Source: Flavivirga aquimarina
Lineage (GTDB): Bacteria > Bacteroidota > Bacteroidia > Flavobacteriales > Flavobacteriaceae
NCBI RefSeq assembly: GCF_030540835.1
Contig: NZ_JAUOEK010000142.1
Span: 1 to 64,000, forward strand
Reading direction: 5' to 3'
DNA length: 64,000 nt
Positions 27,708 through 35,998 of this stretch are shown here, one piece after another. The position numbers and the translations under genes are program-made. The notes below the pieces were generated by a model. That model worked only from the letters and a program-made list of their open reading frames with translations. It was not told the DNA's origin and searched no databases. Within the stretch, counting starts at the first letter, position 1; each line of letters begins with the position of its first letter.

Positions 27708-28334
27708 TTATTTGTGTCTACCTCTTAATTCTTCTTCAATGTCTTTAAGAGAAAACCCTTTGGCTTTTAATAGCATTAAATAGTGAAATAATAAGTCTGC
27801 AGACTCGTACAAAAACAACTCATCATTGTTATCCATAGCTTCAATAACGGTTTCTACAGCCTCCTCTCCTACTTTCTGGGCTATTTTATTGATGCCTTTT
27901 TCAAATAAACTCGCGACATACGATTTTTTAGTATCTTTATTTGAAACACGTTCTGCAATAACATCTTCTAACGTAGAGAAAAAACCATAGGTCGATTTAT
28001 TCTCATCTGCCCAACAGGTATCTGTTCCTTTGTGACATGTTGGCCCAACAGGATTTACCGTAATTAAAAGCGTATCATTATCGCAATCATTTTTTATATC
28101 AATCAAGTTTAGAAAGTTGCCACTTTCTTCACCTTTAGTCCATAAACGTTGCTTACTTCTACTAAAAAAGGTTACCTGCTTGGTTTCCATTGTTTTTTGG
28201 TAAGCTTCTTCATTCATATACCCCAGCATTAGTACGCTTTTTGTTGTAGCATCTTGGATGATGGCTGGTATAAGAGCCCCCTCTAACTCCCCCCAAGGGG
28301 GAGAAATAATATCTGAATTTTTACTATTCATCAT
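27708..28334 (-). CDS. hisIE: Phosphoribosyl-AMP cyclohydrolase / phosphoribosyl-ATP pyrophosphatase
   Basis: A bifunctional 208-aa enzyme for steps 2 and 3 of histidine synthesis. The HisI half (about 20-115) has FFSRSKQRLWTKGEESGN and the Zn-site region DCDNDTLLITVNPVGPTCHKGTDTCW. The HisE half (about 118-205) has EKGINKIAQKVGEEAVETVIEA and ADLLFHYLMLL. The N-terminus carries an unusual ISPPWGELEGA before LIPAIIQDA, encoded by a palindromic repeat (28287-28303) that has entered the coding region. It is the last his gene in the operon. Confidence 0.96.
   Translation of the reverse strand: MMNSKNSDIISPPWGELEGALIPAIIQDATTKSVLMLGYMNEEAYQKTMETKQVTFFSRSKQRLWTKGEESGNFLNLIDIKNDCDNDTLLITVNPVGPTCHKGTDTCWADENKSTYGFFSTLEDVIAERVSNKDTKKSYVASLFEKGINKIAQKVGEEAVETVIEAMDNNDELFLYESADLLFHYLMLLKAKGFSLKDIEEELRGRHK
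28287..28303. repeat. Palindromic repeat within hisIE 5' coding region
   Basis: CTCCCCC (28287-28293) and GGGGGAG (28297-28303) form a tight palindrome. Read on the minus strand in frame it encodes part of SPPWGELEGA near the HisIE N-terminus. It belongs to the same small-repeat class as 30741-30757 and 30814-30830. Confidence 0.65.
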
Positions 28335-28379
28335 AACTTAACTTTTACTCGAAATAAATCCCATTTTGAGATATGGGGA

Positions 28380-29135
28380 TTATAATCGTACTTCTATGTT
28401 ATTTTCTTTCAGTTCTTTTTTTAAGTCAGGAATTGGAATTTCCCCAAAATGAAACACGCTAGCTGCCAAAGCGGCATCAGATTTCCCTTCTTTAAAGGTA
28501 TCGATAAAATGCTGCACATTTCCAGCGCCTCCAGAAGCAATAATTGGAATGTTTAATTCTTTAGATAATCTGGCCAATGCTTTATTAGCAAACCCGTTTT
28601 TTGTACCGTCATGATTCATTGATGTAAATAAAATTTCCCCTGCGCCACGTTTTTCAACTTCTTTAGCCCATTCAAACAAATCAATTTCAGTCGGAATGCT
28701 ACCACCTGCTAAATGTACTTTCCATTGTCCGTCTACTTCTTTTGCGTCTATGGCAACTACGACACACTGACTTCCAAATTTATCCGACAATTCATTAACC
28801 AACTCAGGTCTTTTAACTGCAGATGAGTTTATAGATACTTTATCTGCTCCACATTTTAACAAGGCATCTACATCTTCAATAGAAGAGATACCACCACCAA
28901 CTGTAAATGGAATATTTACTTGTTCTGCTACATGGAGCACCATATCTAAAGTGGTTGCCCGGGCTTCTAGTGTAGCAGAAATATCCAAAAATACCAGTTC
29001 GTCTGCCCCAACATCTGCATATTGTTTAGCTAGTTCAACTGGATCGCCAGCATCACGTAAATCAACAAAATTGACACCTTTAACGGTTCTGCCATTTTTT
29101 ATATCTAAACAGGGTATGATTCTTTTTGTTAACAT
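28380..29135 (-). CDS. hisF: Imidazole glycerol phosphate synthase, cyclase subunit
   Basis: A 251-aa (beta/alpha)8 barrel that, with HisH, converts PRFAR to IGP and AICAR. Visible are [22 protein letters not shown] with catalytic D11, [11 protein letters not shown] with the second catalytic Asp, [12 protein letters not shown] and IIASGGAGN. It starts 3 bp after the hisA stop and is translated with it. Confidence 0.97.
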
Positions 29136-29138
29136 GTA

Positions 29139-29873
29139 TTATATAAATTTTTCTAATTCAAACAGACTTATTCTGTTTTCGTAGATGGCTTTGCCAATAA
29201 TGACACCTTCGCAACCAATCTCTTTTAAAACAGGCAATTCTTCAATGGATGAAATACCCCCAGAAGCTATTAATTTAATTGATTGATCGGTACTGCTATT
29301 GGAACATTCTGAAATGATTTGTTTATATAATTCTACCGATGGTCCTTCCAGCATCCCGTCTTTTGAAATATCTGTACAAATAACATACTTAATACTTTTC
29401 TTTTGATACGATTTAATAAACGGAATGACCTCTTCTTTACTTTGCTCCATCCAACCACTAATAGACACCTTTCCATCGTTGCTATCGGCTCCCAAAATAA
29501 TTTTTTCGGGACCATATTTATTAATCCAACCTTCAAAAGTTTCGGAATCTTTAACCGCAATACTCCCTCCGGTGATTTGTCTTGCGCCTGAATTGAAAGC
29601 TATATGTAAATCTTCATTTGTTTTTAGTCCACCACCAAAATCTATTTTAAGACTTGTTTTTGAAGCGATTTGTTCCAGTACTTTATAGTTTACGATATGC
29701 TTCGCTTTTGCACCATCTAGATCAACCAAATGCAAATATTCGATACCGGAAGCCTCAAACATCTTAGCAACCTCTAAAGGGTTTTCGTTATATACTTTTT
29801 TAGTGTCGTAATCACCTTTGGTTAATCGTACACATTTTCCGTCTATGATATCTATGGCTGGTATTATTCTCAT
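29139..29873 (-). CDS. hisA: ProFAR isomerase
   Basis: A 244-aa barrel enzyme opening the ribose ring of ProFAR to PRFAR. Motifs are [21 protein letters not shown] with catalytic Asp 8, [11 protein letters not shown], and [22 protein letters not shown] with the second Asp, then [13 protein letters not shown]. It lies between the 58-aa ORF with its repeats and hisF. Confidence 0.97.
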
Positions 29874-29880
29874 AATTTTC

Positions 29881-29952
29881 CCTGCGTAGGCAGGAATCTT
29901 TTTAATTAATTCTTATTCTTTATTGAAGCACTTCGACTGTGCTCAGTGTGAC
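29881..29952. repeat. Two small palindromic repeats between hisA and the 58-aa ORF
   Basis: CCTGC/GCAGG (29881-29885 and 29890-29894) is a degenerate copy of the same unit found at the hisD end (33427-33450). A second element (29928-29952, cacttcgactgtgctcagtg) has nested CACT/AGTG and GCAC/GTGC arms. Neither has terminator character for the operon strand. Confidence 0.5.
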
Positions 29953-29955
29953 AAA

Positions 29956-30132
29956 TTAAACATTTTTGACTATTTCTCTTATCTTATCAATCAAAAACGA
30001 GGTTTCTTCTATATGATGCTTTTCTAGGTTTTTATATCTTTCTTCCCAAGATAAACTTTCGTCGTCTTTATATCTCTTAACTTTAATCCATTTATAAGTT
30101 TCGAGTATTAATTTTTTATCATGGCTATTCAT
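29956..30132 (-). CDS. Small his-operon ORF (58 aa), hypothetical
   Basis: A 58-aa frame from ATG 30132 to TAA 29956: MNSHDKKLILETYKWIKVK, then RYKDDESLSWEERYKNLEKHH and IEETSFLIDKIREIVKNV. It is highly charged, helical and cytosolic. It sits 17 bp downstream of hisH on the same strand, has no gap filler other than repeats before hisA, and its composition looks coding. I recall similar short proteins in this position in related flavobacteria. A role in IGP synthase or his control is speculation. Confidence 0.65.
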   Translation of the reverse strand: MNSHDKKLILETYKWIKVKRYKDDESLSWEERYKNLEKHHIEETSFLIDKIREIVKNV

Positions 30133-30149
30133 CAGAAAATTACTTTAAT

Positions 30150-30788
30150 TTATAATTTTAAAAAATTCTTCAAAATTTTTGCCCCTGCTAAGCTACTCTT
30201 TTCTGGATGAAATTGAACGCCATAAAAATTATTATGCTGTAATGCTGAAGCGTAATTAATACCATAGTCTGTCTTTGCTATGGTTTCATCACAGTGCTCT
30301 GCATAGTAACTATGTACTAAATACATATATTCATTTTCTTTAATTCCAGAAAATAAATCTGACTTCAAATCTTTTATAACATTCCAACCCATTTGCGGTA
30401 CTTTTACACCACTGTTAAAGCGTTTTACTTTTGTTTTGAATATACCGATGCCTTTAGTATTTCCTTCTTCTGTCGATTCACAAAGTAATTGCATTCCTAA
30501 ACAAATTCCTAAAACAGGTTGTTTTAAATTTGGAATAAGCTTGTCCAATCCACTTTCTTGAAGCATATTCATGGCAGTACTCGCCTCACCTACACCGGGA
30601 AAGATCACTTTATCGGCCGTTAATATTTCTTCTGGGTTATTTGATAAAACAGCATCAACCCCTAAGCGTTTAAAAGCAAATTGAATACTTTTAATATTAC
30701 CAGCTCCGTAATTTATAATAACAACAGAAGCCCCATCTAACTTCCCCGAAGGGGAAGAATTGTTACTCTGTTCTGCTTTTTTACTCAT
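30150..30788 (-). CDS. hisH: Imidazole glycerol phosphate synthase, glutaminase subunit
   Basis: A 212-aa class I amidotransferase that feeds ammonia to HisF. The catalytic triad is visible: Cys in VLGICLGMQLL, His and Glu in YGVQFHPEKS. The usual start would be near VVIINYGAGNIKS. Here about 20 extra residues (MSKKAEQSNNSSPSGKLDGA) precede it, partly encoded by palindrome 30741-30757. No start codon closer to the core is seen, so the extension is probably real. Confidence 0.95.
   Translation of the reverse strand: MSKKAEQSNNSSPSGKLDGASVVIINYGAGNIKSIQFAFKRLGVDAVLSNNPEEILTADKVIFPGVGEASTAMNMLQESGLDKLIPNLKQPVLGICLGMQLLCESTEEGNTKGIGIFKTKVKRFNSGVKVPQMGWNVIKDLKSDLFSGIKENEYMYLVHSYYAEHCDETIAKTDYGINYASALQHNNFYGVQFHPEKSSLAGAKILKNFLKL
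30741..30757. repeat. Palindromic repeat within hisH 5' coding region
   Basis: CTTCCCC (30741-30747) and GGGGAAG (30751-30757) surround gaa. Read in frame on the minus strand this gives SSPSGKL of the HisH N-terminal extension. Confidence 0.65.
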
Positions 30789-30813
30789 TTTATATTTTTA
30801 TTCGGTTATAACT

Positions 30814-30830
30814 CCTTCCTTTTGGGAAGG
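30814..30830. repeat. Palindromic repeat between hisB and hisH
   Basis: CCTTCC (30814-30819) and GGAAGG (30825-30830), followed by ttgggatggg, fill the hisB-hisH junction. It belongs to the same family of GC-rich hairpins as the units inside hisH and hisIE. Confidence 0.6.
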
Positions 30831-30843
30831 TTGGGATGGGCTT

Positions 30844-31977
30844 TTATAACATTCCTTTGGTTGATGGCAAAATCATTTTCTCAACATCTCGTTTTACTGC
30901 CATTTTAATAGCTTTGGCAAAGGCTTTAAAAATAGCTTCAATTTTATGATGCTCGTTTTGTCCTTCGGCTTTTATATTCAGGTTGCATTTAGCACCATCT
31001 GTAAACGATTTAAAGAAATGGTAAAACATTTCTGTTGGCATTTTTCCAATCATTTCCCGCTTAAAATCCGCTTCCCAAACCAACCAGTTTCTTCCACCAA
31101 AATCGATAGCTGCTTGTGCATAGCAGTCGTCCATAGGTAAACAAAATCCATAGCGCTCTATGCCCAATTTATTACCTAAAGCGGTATTAAATAACTCTCC
31201 TAATGCAATAGCAGTATCTTCAATGGTATGGTGCTCATCAACTTCTAAGTCGCCATCTACTTTTATGTTTAAATCTATTTGTCCATGGCGCGCTATTTGG
31301 TCCAGCATGTGATCGAAAAAGGCTAAGCCAGTATCTATATTGCTTTTCCCTGTTCCGTCCAGGTTAATTTGTATGGCAATTTTTGTTTCATTGGTATTTC
31401 TAATAATATCTCCGATACGAGCACTGGTTTTTAAGAAGGTATAGATTTTTTCCCAATCATTACTTTCTAATGCTATATAAGCGTCTAATTGCTCTCTTTT
31501 TACGGTGATTTCGTCCGTTCCTAAGTTTGTTTCATCATTTATAAAAACACCTTTAGCTCCCAGGTTTTTTGCTAACTCGATATCTGTAAGTCTATCTCCT
31601 ATTACAAAAGAGTTTTCCAGGTCATAATCATCAGAAAAATACTTAGTCAATAAGCCTGTATTAGGTTTTCTTGTCGGTGCGTTGTCTTTTGCAAAAGTTC
31701 TATCTATAAATTGTTCTTTAAAGACAATACCTTGATCTTCGAAACATTTAATAATAAAATTATGAATCGGCCAAAAGTCACTTTCCGGAAAGGCTTCGGT
31801 TCCCAAACCATCTTGATTGGTAATCATGACTATTTCATAATCTAATTCTTTAGCTATTTTACCTAAGTATTGAAATACTTTAGGGTAAAACTCTAATTTT
31901 TCAAGCGAATCGATTTGCTCATCAGCTGGTTCTCTGATAATGGTTCCGTCTCGGTCTATGAATAATACTTTTTTCAT
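30844..31977 (-). CDS. hisB: Histidinol-phosphatase / imidazoleglycerol-phosphate dehydratase
   Basis: A bifunctional 377-aa enzyme for two histidine steps. The N-terminal HAD phosphatase (about 1-165) has [23 protein letters not shown] and [22 protein letters not shown]. The C-terminal IGP dehydratase (about 180-377) has [37 protein letters not shown] and [14 protein letters not shown] with the metal-binding His pairs. It is located between the GIY-YIG gene and hisH. Confidence 0.97.
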
Positions 31978-31991
31978 CTTTTTTATTATAT

Positions 31992-32014
31992 GATCCTGAA
32001 TTTATTTCAGGATC
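31992..32014. repeat. Palindromic repeat flanking GIY-YIG gene (downstream side)
   Basis: GATCCTGAA (31992-32000) and TTCAGGATC (32006-32014) are a 9-bp perfect inverted repeat. A similar TCCTGAA/TTCAGGA unit flanks the other side of the gene at 32331-32349. The T run lies on the plus strand, so it would not terminate his transcription. Confidence 0.65.
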
Positions 32015-32017
32015 TTT

Positions 32018-32302
32018 TTATTTTACACTCAATGTTTCTAATTTTGGATTTGAATTCTTAATAAGATTCCATTTCCATTCTTTATGCCAATTTTTTAATT
32101 GCTTTTCTCTTGATTTGGCTTCTTTTATATTTTCAAATTTCTCATAATAGAGTAAATATGAAACATTATACTTTTTGGTAAACACGACACCTTTTCCATT
32201 TTGGTGTTCGCTAATTCTTCTATTTAAATCATTTGTATAACCAATATATAATACGGTTTTGTTTTTGTTAGTTAGAATGTAGCAATAATGTGTTTGTTTC
32301 AA
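32018..32302 (-). CDS. GIY-YIG nuclease superfamily protein
   Basis: A 94-aa single-domain protein with CYILTNKNKTVLYIGYTNDLNRRISEHQNGKGVVFTKKYNVSYLLYYEKFENIKEAKSREKQLKNW: the first tyrosine pair (YILT...LYIGYT), catalytic-type Arg in NDLNRRISEH and Glu in EAKSREKQLK are in place. It resembles small YhbQ-like proteins of uncertain role. It is inserted between hisC and hisB and bracketed by related palindromes, as if it was acquired as a cassette. It has no evident link with histidine synthesis. Confidence 0.9.
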   Translation of the reverse strand: MKQTHYCYILTNKNKTVLYIGYTNDLNRRISEHQNGKGVVFTKKYNVSYLLYYEKFENIKEAKSREKQLKNWHKEWKWNLIKNSNPKLETLSVK

Positions 32303-32330
32303 ATTAATATTCCTTATTTAATTTAAAAGC

Positions 32331-32349
32331 TCCTGAAACAAGTTCAGGA
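32331..32349. repeat. Palindromic repeat flanking GIY-YIG gene (hisC side)
   Basis: TCCTGAA (32331-32337) and TTCAGGA (32343-32349). The right arm runs into the end of hisC and supplies its TGA stop codon (32344-32346, minus strand). It pairs with the matching element at 31992-32014 around the GIY-YIG gene. Confidence 0.65.
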
Positions 32350-33402
32350 TTTCGATATTGATAAAAGTTCCTTTATCAATATCTCATTCTCCTCTTTTGT
32401 GCCAACTGTTAACCTTAAACAATTTTCGCAACCGGGTTGTGTGGTTCGGTTTCTTATTACGATACCTTTGTCTATAAGTTGGTCATAACGTTTTGTTGCA
32501 TCATCAACTTTAACTAAAACAAAATTAGCATCAGACGGGTAAATTTTTGTAATAAAACTAACAGATTCTAATTTTGATATTAAAAAGGCTCGTTCTTTTA
32601 AAATATCATTTATTTGGTTGGTTGCTAAATCTTTTTTATTTAACTGTTGTACAGCTCTTTGTTGTGTTAATTCATTAACATTGTATGGCGGTTTTATTCT
32701 ATTTAAAACTGAAATAATATTAGTTGATGCATAACAAATCCCTAGTCTAATCCCTGCCATTCCGTATGCTTTAGATAAGGTTTGGGTAACTATTAAATTA
32801 GGAAACGCTTCTAGCCTATCAACCCAACTTATTTCTTCTGAAAAATCAATATACGCTTCGTCAATAACTACAATACCTTTGAATTTATTAAGCAATTCTT
32901 CAATTGATTGACTTGAAAAACTGTTTCCTGTAGGGTTATTTGGCGAACATAGGAAAAGAATTTTACTATTATTATCAGCAATATTTAATATGGTTTCAAC
33001 TTGTGGTTGAAAATTGTTTGATAACTGTACCTCTTTAATACTTATAGCATTAATATTGGCTAACACGCTATACATGCCATATGTGGGAGGCAATATGATG
33101 ATATTGTCTTTGTTTGGTTCACAAAAGGCTCTAAAAATAAGGTCTAATACTTCGTCACTTCCATTGCCTAAAAGAATATTTTTGGCATCAATGTTTTTAA
33201 TTTCAGAAAGTATCGCCTTTAAACTTCCTTGTTGTGGATCTGGATAACGGTTTACACCATTATTAAAAGGGTTTTCATTAGCATCCAGAAACACCATAGC
33301 ATTGCTGTTACCTTGAAATTCATCTCTTGCAGACGAATAAGGTTTTAATGTTTTTATGGTTGGACGTATTAAATCGTCTATATTGAAACTTGTTGTTTTC
33401 AT
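32344..33402 (-). CDS. hisC: Histidinol-phosphate aminotransferase
   Basis: A 352-aa fold-type I PLP aminotransferase converting imidazole acetol phosphate to histidinol phosphate. Visible are DANENPFNNGVNRYPDPQQ, LLGNGSDEVLDLIFRAFC, CSPNNPTGN, VVIDEAYIDFS, the PLP lysine in TLSKAYGMAGIRLG, and GCENCLRLTVGTKEEN near the C-terminus. The final codons and stop lie inside a palindromic repeat. It follows hisD by 20 bp. Confidence 0.97.
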   Translation of the reverse strand: MKTTSFNIDDLIRPTIKTLKPYSSARDEFQGNSNAMVFLDANENPFNNGVNRYPDPQQGSLKAILSEIKNIDAKNILLGNGSDEVLDLIFRAFCEPNKDNIIILPPTYGMYSVLANINAISIKEVQLSNNFQPQVETILNIADNNSKILFLCSPNNPTGNSFSSQSIEELLNKFKGIVVIDEAYIDFSEEISWVDRLEAFPNLIVTQTLSKAYGMAGIRLGICYASTNIISVLNRIKPPYNVNELTQQRAVQQLNKKDLATNQINDILKERAFLISKLESVSFITKIYPSDANFVLVKVDDATKRYDQLIDKGIVIRNRTTQPGCENCLRLTVGTKEENEILIKELLSISKS

Positions 33403-33422
33403 TTTAATTCTGGAACTAGTAT

Positions 33423-34727
33423 TTATGAGATTCCGGCCTTCGCAGGAATAATGTCTTTTAATCTGATAGACACCGCATTTTTATGTGCCTGTAAACCTTC
33501 TGCTTCTGCCATTAACTCGATGGTTTCTCCTATGTTCAATAAGCCTTCTTTTGTTATTTTTTGAAAAGTCATACTTTTTAAAAAACTATCTAGATTAACT
33601 CCAGAATAGGCTTTTGAAAACCCATTAGTTGGGAGCGTGTGGTTTGTTCCTGAAGCATAATCGCCTGCGCTTTCAGGGGTGTAATTACCTATAAAAACAG
33701 ACCCTGCATTGGTTATTCCATTTATAAAGAAAGCATCATTTTTAGTACAGATAATAAAGTGTTCTGGTCCGTATTCATTAATTAAATCGAGTGCTAATTC
33801 ATTTGTTTCCATATAAATTAGTTTTGAGTTTGCAATAGCCTTTTCTGCTATAGCTTGTCTTGGCAACTCTTTAATTTGTTTTTCGATTTCTTTCGACACT
33901 AAGTCTATTGTTGTTTTAGAGGTTGACACTAAAATAACTTGACTATCTGTGCCGTGCTCTGCTTGACTTAGCAAGTCTGAAGCAATATATGCTGCATTTG
34001 AATCGGCATCGGCAACCACTAATAATTCGCTTGGTCCCGCTGGCATATCAATAGCAACTCCAAATTTTGTAGCCAATTGTTTTGCAACGGTCACAAATTG
34101 ATTTCCCGGTCCGAAAATTTTATAAACTTGCGGTATGGTTTCTGTACCAAATGTTAATCCGGCTATGGCTTGAATTCCTCCAACTTTTATAATTTTTGTA
34201 ACACCGCAAAGTTGTGCTGCAAAAAGAATTTCTGGTGCTAAAGTCCCTTCTTTATTGGGTGGTGAGCATAATACAATTTCTTTACATCCCGCTATTTGTG
34301 CTGGAACGGCTAACATTAAAACTGTTGAAAATAAAGGTGCTGTACCTCCTGGGATATACAAACCGACTTTTTCGATAGGACGCTTTTCCTGCCAACATTG
34401 CACTCCTTTGGTGGTTTCTATTTCTATTTTTGATGTTTTTTGTGCTGTGTGAAAGGCTTCTATATTTTTCTTAGCTTTTTTTATAGCATTTTGAAGCTTT
34501 TCAGGAACATTTTCAATGGCTTGTTGAATAGCTTCCGATGTGACTATATTGGACTCTAGTTCTACTCCATCAAAACGCGTTGTATAATTTTTGATAGCGG
34601 CGTCTCCATTTTTAATAACATCATTAAAAACATCGCTCACGATACCTTCTATATCATCAACCGTTTGTGTTGGACGTTTTAATATCTTTAACCAGCTATC
34701 TTTATTTGGATTATCTACAATTTGCAT
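33423..34727 (-). CDS. hisD: Histidinol dehydrogenase
   Basis: The start used is ATG 34727 (MQIVDNPNKDSW), giving 434 aa; the frame is open to 34751 but the extra residues are not family-like. The enzyme makes the last two NAD-dependent oxidations to histidine. Motifs are PGGTAPLFSTVLMLAVPAQIAGC, the DMPAGPSELLVVADADSNAAYIASDLLSQAEHG stretch with the Zn ligands, and SAGDYASGTNHTLPT. The C-terminus ends KDIIPAKAGIS, of which PAKAGIS is translated from a palindromic repeat (33427-33450). Confidence 0.96.
   Translation of the reverse strand: MQIVDNPNKDSWLKILKRPTQTVDDIEGIVSDVFNDVIKNGDAAIKNYTTRFDGVELESNIVTSEAIQQAIENVPEKLQNAIKKAKKNIEAFHTAQKTSKIEIETTKGVQCWQEKRPIEKVGLYIPGGTAPLFSTVLMLAVPAQIAGCKEIVLCSPPNKEGTLAPEILFAAQLCGVTKIIKVGGIQAIAGLTFGTETIPQVYKIFGPGNQFVTVAKQLATKFGVAIDMPAGPSELLVVADADSNAAYIASDLLSQAEHGTDSQVILVSTSKTTIDLVSKEIEKQIKELPRQAIAEKAIANSKLIYMETNELALDLINEYGPEHFIICTKNDAFFINGITNAGSVFIGNYTPESAGDYASGTNHTLPTNGFSKAYSGVNLDSFLKSMTFQKITKEGLLNIGETIELMAEAEGLQAHKNAVSIRLKDIIPAKAGIS
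33427..33450. repeat. Palindromic repeat forming the HisD C-terminus
   Basis: CCGGC (33433-33437) and GCAGG (33442-33446) enclose cttc, with outer TTCC/GGAA arms. The element covers the last codons of hisD and adds the tail IIPAKAGIS to the enzyme. Confidence 0.65.
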
Positions 34728-34786: not shown

Positions 34787-35644
34787 CTAAATAACCATTT
34801 TTTCAATAGGACAAACTAAAATGCCTTGGGCTCCATTCTCTTTTAAGTCATCTATAACATCCCAAAACTCATTTTTGCTTATTACCGAGTGTACTGAGCT
34901 CCACCCTTCTTGCGCTAAAGGTAAAACAGTTGGGCTTTTCATACCGGGCAACACATTAATAATATCTTGGATTTTATCGTTTGGTGCATTTAACAAAATA
35001 TATTTTGATTGTCTTCCTTTTAATACGGACTGAATTCTAAACTGAATCTTATCAAGAATAGCTTGTTTGTCGTTGCTAAGAACTGGTGAAACGGCTAATA
35101 CTGCTTCAGATTTCAAAATCATTTCTACCTCTTTTAAATTATTTTTAAATAAGGTACTTCCACTGGAAACAATATCGCAAATAGCATCTGCTAATCCAAT
35201 ATTAGGAGCAATTTCTACCGAACCATTGATAATGTGTAGGTTGGCAGAAATGTTGTTTTCTTTCAAGTAGTTTTTAACTGTATTTGGGTAAGAGGTCGCA
35301 ATGCGCTTTCCTTCTAAATCTTTTATACTTTTATAGTCAACCGATTTTGGCACAGCAATACAAACTCTACAGGTGGAAAACCCTAATTTTTCGGCAACAC
35401 GAATATCATTACCTTTTTCAATTAGGACGTTTTCTCCAATAATAGCGACATCTACTACGCCATCCTTAAGATATTGTGGGATATCCCCGTTTCTTAAGTA
35501 GAAAACTTCTACTGGAAAGTTTCTGGCTGATGCTTTTAATTGATCTTTTCCGTTATCGATAGATATACCGATGTCTTTTAAAATTCTCATCGAATCTTCG
35601 TTTAAACGACCCGACTTCTGTACTGCAATTCTTAATTTACTCAT
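34787..35644 (-). CDS. hisG: ATP phosphoribosyltransferase (long form)
   Basis: The start is ATG 35644 (MSKLRIAVQKSGRLN), giving 285 aa; upstream in-frame codons run through the attenuator region and are not protein-like. The enzyme condenses ATP and PRPP, the committed and feedback-inhibited step. Long-form features are the N-terminal type-II periplasmic-binding-like fold (DVAIIGENVLIE, LGFSTCRVCIAVPKS, RIATSYPNTVKNYL, DIVSSGSTL) and a C-terminal regulatory domain (about 205-285; PGMKSPTVLPLAQEGWSSVHSVIS). It is the first structural gene, behind a His-peptide attenuator. Confidence 0.96.
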   Translation of the reverse strand: MSKLRIAVQKSGRLNEDSMRILKDIGISIDNGKDQLKASARNFPVEVFYLRNGDIPQYLKDGVVDVAIIGENVLIEKGNDIRVAEKLGFSTCRVCIAVPKSVDYKSIKDLEGKRIATSYPNTVKNYLKENNISANLHIINGSVEIAPNIGLADAICDIVSSGSTLFKNNLKEVEMILKSEAVLAVSPVLSNDKQAILDKIQFRIQSVLKGRQSKYILLNAPNDKIQDIINVLPGMKSPTVLPLAQEGWSSVHSVISKNEFWDVIDDLKENGAQGILVCPIEKMVI

Positions 35645-35675: not shown

Positions 35676-35726
35676 AGATCCCCTCCTTCGTGGAGACTAT
35701 TTCTAATTGTCTTAAAACAATTAGAA
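35676..35726. repeat. Two hairpins between attenuator and hisG
   Basis: CTCC/GGAG (35683-35686 and 35692-35695) is another GC-rich small repeat. TTCTAATTGT (35701-35710) and ACAATTAGAA (35717-35726) form a perfect 10-bp hairpin. Both would lie in the hisG 5' UTR, downstream of the attenuator terminator. Confidence 0.55.
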
Positions 35727-35728
35727 AT

Positions 35729-35762
35729 GAAAAACCCGCTTGATTGTCTCAAACGGGTTTAA
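35729..35762 (-). terminator. his attenuator terminator
   Basis: In minus-strand RNA, AAACCCGUUUGA pairs with UCAAGCGGGUUU (12 bp with one G-U pair) around loop GACAA, followed by U's. It lies 28 nt after the stop of the His-rich leader peptide and 85 nt before hisG. The left arm CGUUUGAGA can instead pair with UCUCAAGCG in the last leader codons (35797-35805), giving an antiterminator. Confidence 0.85.
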
Positions 35763-35790
35763 AAATATGTCGATTTTATTCAATACATTT

Positions 35791-35844
35791 TCAGTTCGCT
35801 TGAGAGCAAATATGAAAATGATGATGTAATTGAATAAAAGTCAT
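35791..35844 (-). CDS. hisL: his operon leader peptide, MTFIQLHHHFHICSQAN
   Basis: A 17-codon ORF from ATG 35844 to TGA 35791 with four His in five consecutive codons (HHHFH). It is directly upstream of a terminator hairpin and hisG, exactly the plan of ribosome-stalling attenuation. RNA covering the His codons (35813-35839) can pair with 35773-35793 (TGAAAATG and ATTGAATAAAA segments). A stalled ribosome would block that pairing. Seen directly: codons, stop, pairing and terminator. Regulation is inferred from enterobacterial his/leu/trp leaders. Confidence 0.85.
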   Translation of the reverse strand: MTFIQLHHHFHICSQAN

Positions 35845-35998
35845 GTCTTTTTTATTTATGCAAATATCTATAATTTATATTTATAATTCCAAATTATAGT
35901 AACAATTTTTGTCTCAAATAAATATTATATGTTTTTAGCTAAAAAAAATCAATAATGTTCAAAATATCAGCTAAAATTTTAAATTATTTAATTCAGTC

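Follow-up and report, generated by a model that had tools for sequence, protein, structure and literature searches.

Histidine attenuators of Firmicutes are described, in the accessible text of PMC9413887, as a short leader with 3-5 His codons, a terminator and an antiterminator. In 2021, strong indications that leader peptides attenuate amino-acid operons were reported for Flavobacterium psychrophilum, and the accessible part of that study lists hisG and pheA with the structured 5′ elements that are found in other Flavobacteriaceae genera and have no Rfam hits (PMC9723704). Here we analyse the leader of the his operon of Flavivirga aquimarina (Flavobacteriaceae), located on the minus strand of a 64,000-nucleotide stretch (positions 1 to 64,000 of contig NZ_JAUOEK010000142.1), referred to below as the window. 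Attenuators in Bacteroidetes/Chlorobi are said to have been predicted by Vitreschak in 2004. The region upstream of hisG likely represents a histidine attenuator in which a ribosome is the sensor and to which a fifth RNA segment is added. The core of this attenuator is already known in kind; segment 5 of the relatives is new. It is an extra strand present in most of them, went unremarked in the initial annotation of this DNA, and is the unusual part of the leader in relatives. We found no description of a fifth segment in his leaders in the literature searched, outside of which lay the supplement of PMC9723704 and most subscription papers.

Leader structure upstream of hisG

The leader comprises the following elements, all on the minus strand (nt, nucleotides; ORF, open reading frame):

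35890..35893 (-), TTTG, candidate -33-like element of a Bacteroidota-type promoter, read from the sequence with the consensus given in the accessible part of PMC6847099
35861..35868 (-), GATATTTG, candidate -7-like promoter element, a sequence match to the consensus TAHHTTTG
35791..35844 (-), leader peptide ORF MTFIQLHHHFHICSQAN, 17 codons including the stop, with an HHHFH run, recognized as an ORF and by its conservation
35813..35837 (-), segment 1, over the His codons, with segment 1′ as its partner in the predicted fold
35776..35793 (-), segment 1′, between the leader stop and the terminator, from the fold and comparison with shuffles
35797..35805 (-), segment 2, UCUCAAGCG, antiterminator left arm formed by the last leader codons, from 2:3 pairing against shuffles
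35747..35755 (-), part of segment 3, the terminator left arm, which pairs with segment 2
35732..35760 (-), intrinsic terminator stem-loop made of segments 3 and 4, 12 bp, loop GACAA
35725..35734 (-), U-rich terminator tail

Transcription is expected to start at about 35855-35857. Four of these elements had been recognized in the initial annotation and are recovered here: the 17-codon ORF lies exactly at 35844-35791, the segment over the His codons (35837-35813) is complementary to the downstream stretch 35793-35776, the 12-bp terminator and its U tail occupy 35760-35732 and 35734-35725, and the last leader codons (35805-35797) can pair alternatively with the terminator left arm at 35755-35747. 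This terminator is the single terminator-like site in an 801-nt region, for which shuffles average 0.3 sites, and the 250-nt leader folds with a z score of -5.75, none of 200 shuffles being equally good. Segment 2 begins 20 nt after the first His codon. Rfam yielded no match in the window at the gathering score, so that neither the His_leader family RF00514 nor a histidine T-box riboswitch is recognized there.

The observed anatomy and its conservation, described below, give good support to ribosome-stall attenuation at His codons, the mechanism put forward in the initial annotation: a His-rich ORF, a terminator, a mutually exclusive antiterminator, the spacing of segment 2, a promoter-like element and the his operon itself all point to it. 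From this anatomy we infer the following action in vivo and response to histidine. When charged tRNA-His is scarce, a ribosome would stall at the HHHFH codons and leave segment 2 free to pair with segment 3, which would block the terminator 3:4 and allow the his operon to be transcribed. With ample histidine, the ribosome would cover segment 2, 3:4 would form and transcription would stop. An untranslated leader is predicted to have the same outcome, with segment 2 held in the 1:1′ hairpin while 3:4 forms.

Conservation of the core attenuator

The family set was drawn from 149 genomes representing 148 genera, two of the genomes coming from the window's genus. HisG was found in 123, and together with 10 extra congeners these provided 133 hisG upstream regions, one of which (L042) is cut by a contig end and has too little upstream sequence. 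Tests of 2:3 and 1:1′ pairing and of stall geometry were made on 128 of the 133 loci, leaving out L042, L082, L088, L114 and L130. The order and class sets exclude G228, a class genome whose hisG is split, a weak second hit in G281 and four genomes of the same family.

The leader is present in all 12 genomes of the genus, each of which has a single copy of the terminator core, at hisG. The closest named HisG proteins, matching that of the window at 94-95%, come from three Flavivirga strains. The comparison of hisG upstream regions across Flavobacteriaceae that the initial annotation had proposed as a check reveals conserved His-codon ORFs: a loose test finds a His-rich ORF at 129 of 133 loci, and a strict one finds an ORF with an ATG start and a His run at 124 of 132 (shuffled rate 0.000). 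A terminator is present at 131 of 133 loci. The antiterminator pairing 2:3, which uses the left arm of the terminator and is therefore mutually exclusive with it, is better than in shuffles (p<=0.05) at 117 of 128 loci; the leader hairpin 1:1′ exceeds shuffles at 81 of 128. Among the same 128 loci, segment 2 most often starts 23 nt (45 loci), 20 nt (28), 24 nt (18) or 21 nt (11) after the first His codon. In the rows inspected, the 23- and 20-nt spacings belong mostly to HHHH and HHH leaders, respectively, which places segment 2 about 11 nt past the run and, given the customary reach of a ribosome, matches the expectation for a run-stalled ribosome that just frees segment 2. At 101 of 128 loci, the -7-like motif NAHHTTTG, a short motif counted without a shuffled control, lies within 45 nt of the leader ATG, at a median distance of 17 nt. 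The promoter motif in its two-part form, TT[TG]G-N18-22-NANNTTTG, is found at 58 of 128 (shuffled rate 0.001).

By the same strict test, His-run ORFs precede hisG at 22 of 28 loci in other families of the order (shuffled rate 0.002) and at 22 of 32 in other orders of the class (shuffled rate 0.000); His leaders before hisG are therefore frequent in the class. This anatomy is thus the rule before hisG in the family and frequent across the class, yet no Rfam model matches the window. The initial annotation had presented the leader as special because it lies outside Proteobacteria, a view that does not stand in the light of these 22 loci from other orders, of the attenuators reported in the accessible text on Firmicutes (PMC9413887) and of the attenuation by leader peptides suspected, with a hisG element named, in the accessible text on F. 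psychrophilum (PMC9723704).

Terminators outside the family are often quite different, and in other orders of the class (L304-L335) the His-run leaders before hisG are accompanied by an unrelated terminator, often GGCTTACC...GGTAAGCC. Four loci from genomes of about 0.6 Mb (L298-L301) have kept hisG, preceded by a weak terminator-like hairpin that begins 43 nt upstream; no His leader ORF was found at these loci, which perhaps represent a decayed attenuator. Leaders for other amino acids were also seen by eye in the family: many of 30 pheA upstream regions (L134-L163) carry Phe-rich leaders with terminators, and several of 30 ilvD upstream regions (L164-L193) carry Ile/Val-rich leaders with terminators.

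A fifth segment between terminator and hisG

In the congener L002, the terminator left arm and loop (GTTTGAGACAATC) are complementary to the stretch GATTGTTTCAAAC, which is located 16 nt upstream of the hisG AUG. In other genera, the loop and the downstream stretch differ together (GAGTAAATC/GATTTACTC, GAGTAGTTC/GAACTGCTC, GAGCAATTC/GAATTGCTC). We scored the complementarity of each locus to its own spacer against dinucleotide shuffles, taking a spacer of at least 40 nt as room for segment 5, a length reached at 111 of the 131 loci with a terminator. Segment 5 was significant (p<=0.05) at 87 of these 111 loci, where about 6 are expected, and 78 of them had p<=0.01; the corresponding count for short-spacer loci was 1 of 20. 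A few of the 87 are non-canonical matches, including those of the window (L001) and of L077. When each of 39 distinct loop types was represented by one locus, own spacers gave a summed score of -500 as against -349 (standard deviation 13.5) for swapped spacers, a difference reached in none of 20000 permutations.

Covariation was assessed in a MAFFT alignment (A1) of 77 rows, chosen by spacer length (40-60 nt) and unfiltered for pairing, from 85 loci of which 8 congeners or near relatives were left out. The terminator stem is paired in 99.3% of its cells, and the 3:5 pairs are formed in 86.4%. Two-sided changes occur at 9 of the 14 3:5 pairs (6.4 in shuffled alignments, equalled in 6 of 500) and in 97 cells, compared with 43 (standard deviation 6) in shuffles, none of 500 reaching that number. 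The covariation score of 0.318 exceeds the shuffled value of 0.196 (0 of 500) and falls to 0.031-0.076 when the partners are slid. The pair 12:62 is AU in 26 rows, UA in 19, CG in 12, UG in 9 and unpaired in 8; like the covarying pair 13:61 it is located in the loop, and because loop bases are unpaired in 3:4, the terminator cannot explain the 3:5 covariation. In the 78 strongest loci, segment 5 lies at a median of 16 nt from the AUG with an interquartile range of 15-17 nt, the interquartile range of its distance to the terminator being 20-27 nt.

Beyond the family, segment 5 was significant (p<=0.05) at 13 of 17 loci with room (here at least 35 nt) in other families of the order; these 17 loci come from few families and the 13 positives from 5, several of the loci being congeners. 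The positives have partly different sequences and lie 12-21 nt from the AUG; L283, for example, combines an unrelated terminator sequence with a segment 5 about 13 nt from the AUG. Among the 11 loci with room from other orders of the class, 2 were significant. Outside the family, segment 5 is thus known from 5 families of the order and hardly beyond. Among 80 named loci, of which L216 was dropped as it starts at hisG, the strict terminator motif is present at 57 of 79, and 48 of these 57 have p<=0.05; the named carriers include Flavivirga amylovorans, Algibacter mikhailovii, Maribacter algarum, Mangrovimonas xylaniphaga and Tenacibaculum aquimarinum. In the family, none of 9 pheA leaders and none of 15 ilvD leaders tested has a segment 5, the remainder of the 30 loci fetched for each gene having short spacers, short loci or no terminator. 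The idea that segment 5 is a general feature of flavobacterial attenuators was accordingly rejected. At the 15 tested ilvD loci, the terminator lies 185-264 nt upstream of the assumed gene start.

The degraded copy in the window

The window itself retains a remnant of segment 5, which is enclosed in a palindrome (all on the minus strand):

35712..35722 (-), degenerate segment 5 remnant AATTGTTTTAA, complementary to the terminator left arm and loop
35700..35727 (-), palindrome enclosing the remnant in its own hairpin, from the fold
35679..35696 (-), small hairpin TCTCC...GGAGGGGA after the palindrome, from the fold

The remnant forms a duplex with segment 3 of -8.6 kcal/mol, as compared with -18.0 kcal/mol in L002, and the best duplex of the window (p 0.043) involves another, non-canonical stretch. 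Since segment 5 of the window's species is degraded, a plain attenuator probably remains there. By eye, the palindrome and the small hairpin between terminator and hisG are present in only 2 of the 12 congeners, the window's genome (L001) and L011. The palindrome was rejected as a repeated genomic element at the sensitivity of our search, which found only the palindrome and its own reverse strand. Small palindromes seemingly inserted between terminator and hisG were also seen by eye in several genera, at L038, L040, L045, L053, L055, L057, L065, L014 and L026, and some of them directly precede the AUG.

Possible function of the fifth segment

Segment 5 is transcribed after the terminator and therefore can have no effect on termination; any action must be on read-through mRNA. 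Its pairing with segment 3 and the terminator loop is shown by the covariation in relatives, and the choice of partner by segment 3 would be linked to the access of 30S subunits to the hisG start. In F. johnsoniae, start regions have low structure from -20 to +20, and protein bS1 is described as positioned to contact nucleotides -12 to -15, according to the accessible part of PMC6847099. The position of segment 5 near the AUG, together with these two features, suggests a gate on hisG translation, through which segment 5 would tie the state of the leader to the translation of its first gene. Control of translation would thereby be added to control of transcription in a phylum without Shine-Dalgarno sequences. 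The hallmark of such a dual leader, a conserved start-proximal strand that competes for a leader segment, is found in the relatives; the window has only its remnant. We tentatively propose, while putting it somewhat below an even chance, a five-segment switch in which the terminator left arm and loop are read twice, by segments 2 and 4 for transcription and then by segment 5 for hisG translation, possibly with a relay in which 3:5 takes over from 2:3 and holds the start open.

Several observations weigh against this proposal and against a fifth segment as a part of the attenuator. In nested equilibrium folding, 3:4 is more stable than 3:5 by a mean of 3.6 kcal/mol, 3:5 being the better structure at 8 of 78 loci, and the probability of 3:5 in read-through RNA is 0.04-0.07 with or without a masked ribosome. 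The masked-ribosome model evidently misses co-transcriptional folding, because it assigns 2:3 a probability of only 0.02 under stall. As folding disfavours 3:5, any effect would need to depend on kinetics, a pseudoknot or the help of a protein. At the outer end of the helix, pair 19:56 is missing from 29 rows of A1 and pair 20:55 from 34. No significant segment 5 was found at 24 of the 111 long-spacer loci, and at only 57 of 111 was pairing with the own spacer better than with at least 95% of the spacers from loci with a different loop. The shuffle and permutation statistics do not remove phylogeny. Placement is less uniform than the quartiles suggest: 7 of the 78 strongest loci have segment 5 at 33-47 nt from the AUG, the other 71 covering 13-24 nt, and the spread over all 78 is greater relative to the AUG (standard deviation 8.2) than to the terminator (6.3). 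The window's own copy, finally, is degraded by the palindromic insert and buried in its own hairpin (-6.5 kcal/mol).

The alternative that survives best, though we think it rather unlikely, is a relay in which segment 5 has two alternative partners, segment 3 and the hisG start AUGAGUAAA (5:6), translation being opened by 3:5 and closed by 5:6. Complementarity 5:6 is significant (p<=0.05) at 44 of 112 loci, including all 18 with a GTAAA loop, and in the GACAA loop class the AUG is predicted to be unpaired with a probability of 0.20, compared with 0.45 for shuffled spacers. However, 5:6 is significant at only 10 of 28 GACAA loci and at few others (GCAA 1 of 9, GAAA 0 of 5), and burial of the AUG exceeds that in 95% of shuffles at only 5 of 28 GACAA and 0 of 18 GTAAA loci. 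Moreover, all 18 loci of the GTAAA class share one start codon sequence (ATGAGTAAA), which precludes a covariation test of 5:6 in the class where it is strongest.

Improbable in our view is a plain classic attenuator in which segment 5 is a functionless by-product of inverted duplication or shared composition. The equilibrium preference for 3:4, the degraded copy in the window and the lack of a significant match at 24 of 111 long-spacer and 19 of 20 short-spacer loci would all agree with it; what speaks for a function is the two-sided covariation across many loop sequences, which is lost when partners are slid, the failure of all 20000 permutations to reach the observed sum, and the narrow AUG distance in most loci. 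Terminated attenuator RNAs can act in trans, as rnTrpL does, and the terminated his leader RNA might likewise act at segment-5-like sites in other mRNAs; an exact 13-mer search of the 12 congeners returned mainly hisG, with 4 further sites spread over 3 genomes, compared with 7 matches of a backward control pattern, which makes this very doubtful. A DNA operator for a repressor, which the inverted repeat of the arms might recall, is hardly credible as the arm sequences vary between genera while their complementarity is kept.

If the five-segment switch is real, a stalled leader ribosome would program both transcription and translation in bacteria without Shine-Dalgarno sequences. The covarying fifth strand offers a concrete, easily mutated leader in which such coupling may occur, and bears on how bacteria of this phylum regulate initiation.

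The his operon and neighbouring genes

The initial annotation placed a full his operon downstream of the leader, and Pfam bears this out:

36814-35999 (-), SPFH/Band 7 gene, the upstream neighbour of the leader
34787..35644 (-), hisG, first gene of the operon (Pfam HisG, HisG_C)
27708..34724 (-), remaining operon: hisD, hisC, a GIY-YIG ORF, hisB, hisH, hisA, hisF and hisIE (Pfam, ORFs)

Downstream of hisG, Pfam recognizes histidinol dehydrogenase, class I/II aminotransferase, GIY-YIG, IGPD, glutamine amidotransferase, two His_biosynth and PRA-CH/PRA-PH domains. IGPD corresponds to hisB, the His_biosynth pair to hisA and hisF, and PRA-CH/PRA-PH to hisIE; the aminotransferase and the glutamine amidotransferase were assigned as hisC and hisH by their place in the operon. 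The GIY-YIG ORF between hisC and hisB (32018-32302 (-), TTG start, 94 aa) has a Pfam E value of 7.8e-18. HisH (30150-30788 (-)) and HisIE (27708-28334 (-)) have the N-terminal additions NSSPSGKLDGA and SPPWGELEGA, respectively, and the C-terminal end of HisD (33423-34724 (-)) is IPAKAGIS; these additions and the HisD end may be translated inserted palindromic repeats, which they resemble.

Comparison with known attenuation systems

The Firmicutes attenuators have the same His-codon leader, terminator and antiterminator as the window, and no downstream strand is named in the accessible text (PMC9413887). The hisG element of F. psychrophilum has gene and family in common with the window's leader; the accessible part of its description gives no segments and no fifth strand (PMC9723704). 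The enterobacterial hisL leader (RF00514) shares the His-codon leader peptide, the terminator, the exclusive antiterminator and the position upstream of hisG (PMC9413887). It differs in that the window has no RF00514 match at the gathering score and that segment 5 is extra in the relatives. The hisL leader also has more hairpins. In the trp leader of Bacillus subtilis, one leader controls both termination and the translation of the first gene on read-through transcripts, as proposed here for hisG; there the sensor is TRAP and the gate a Shine-Dalgarno hairpin, whereas in the his leader the sensor would be the ribosome.
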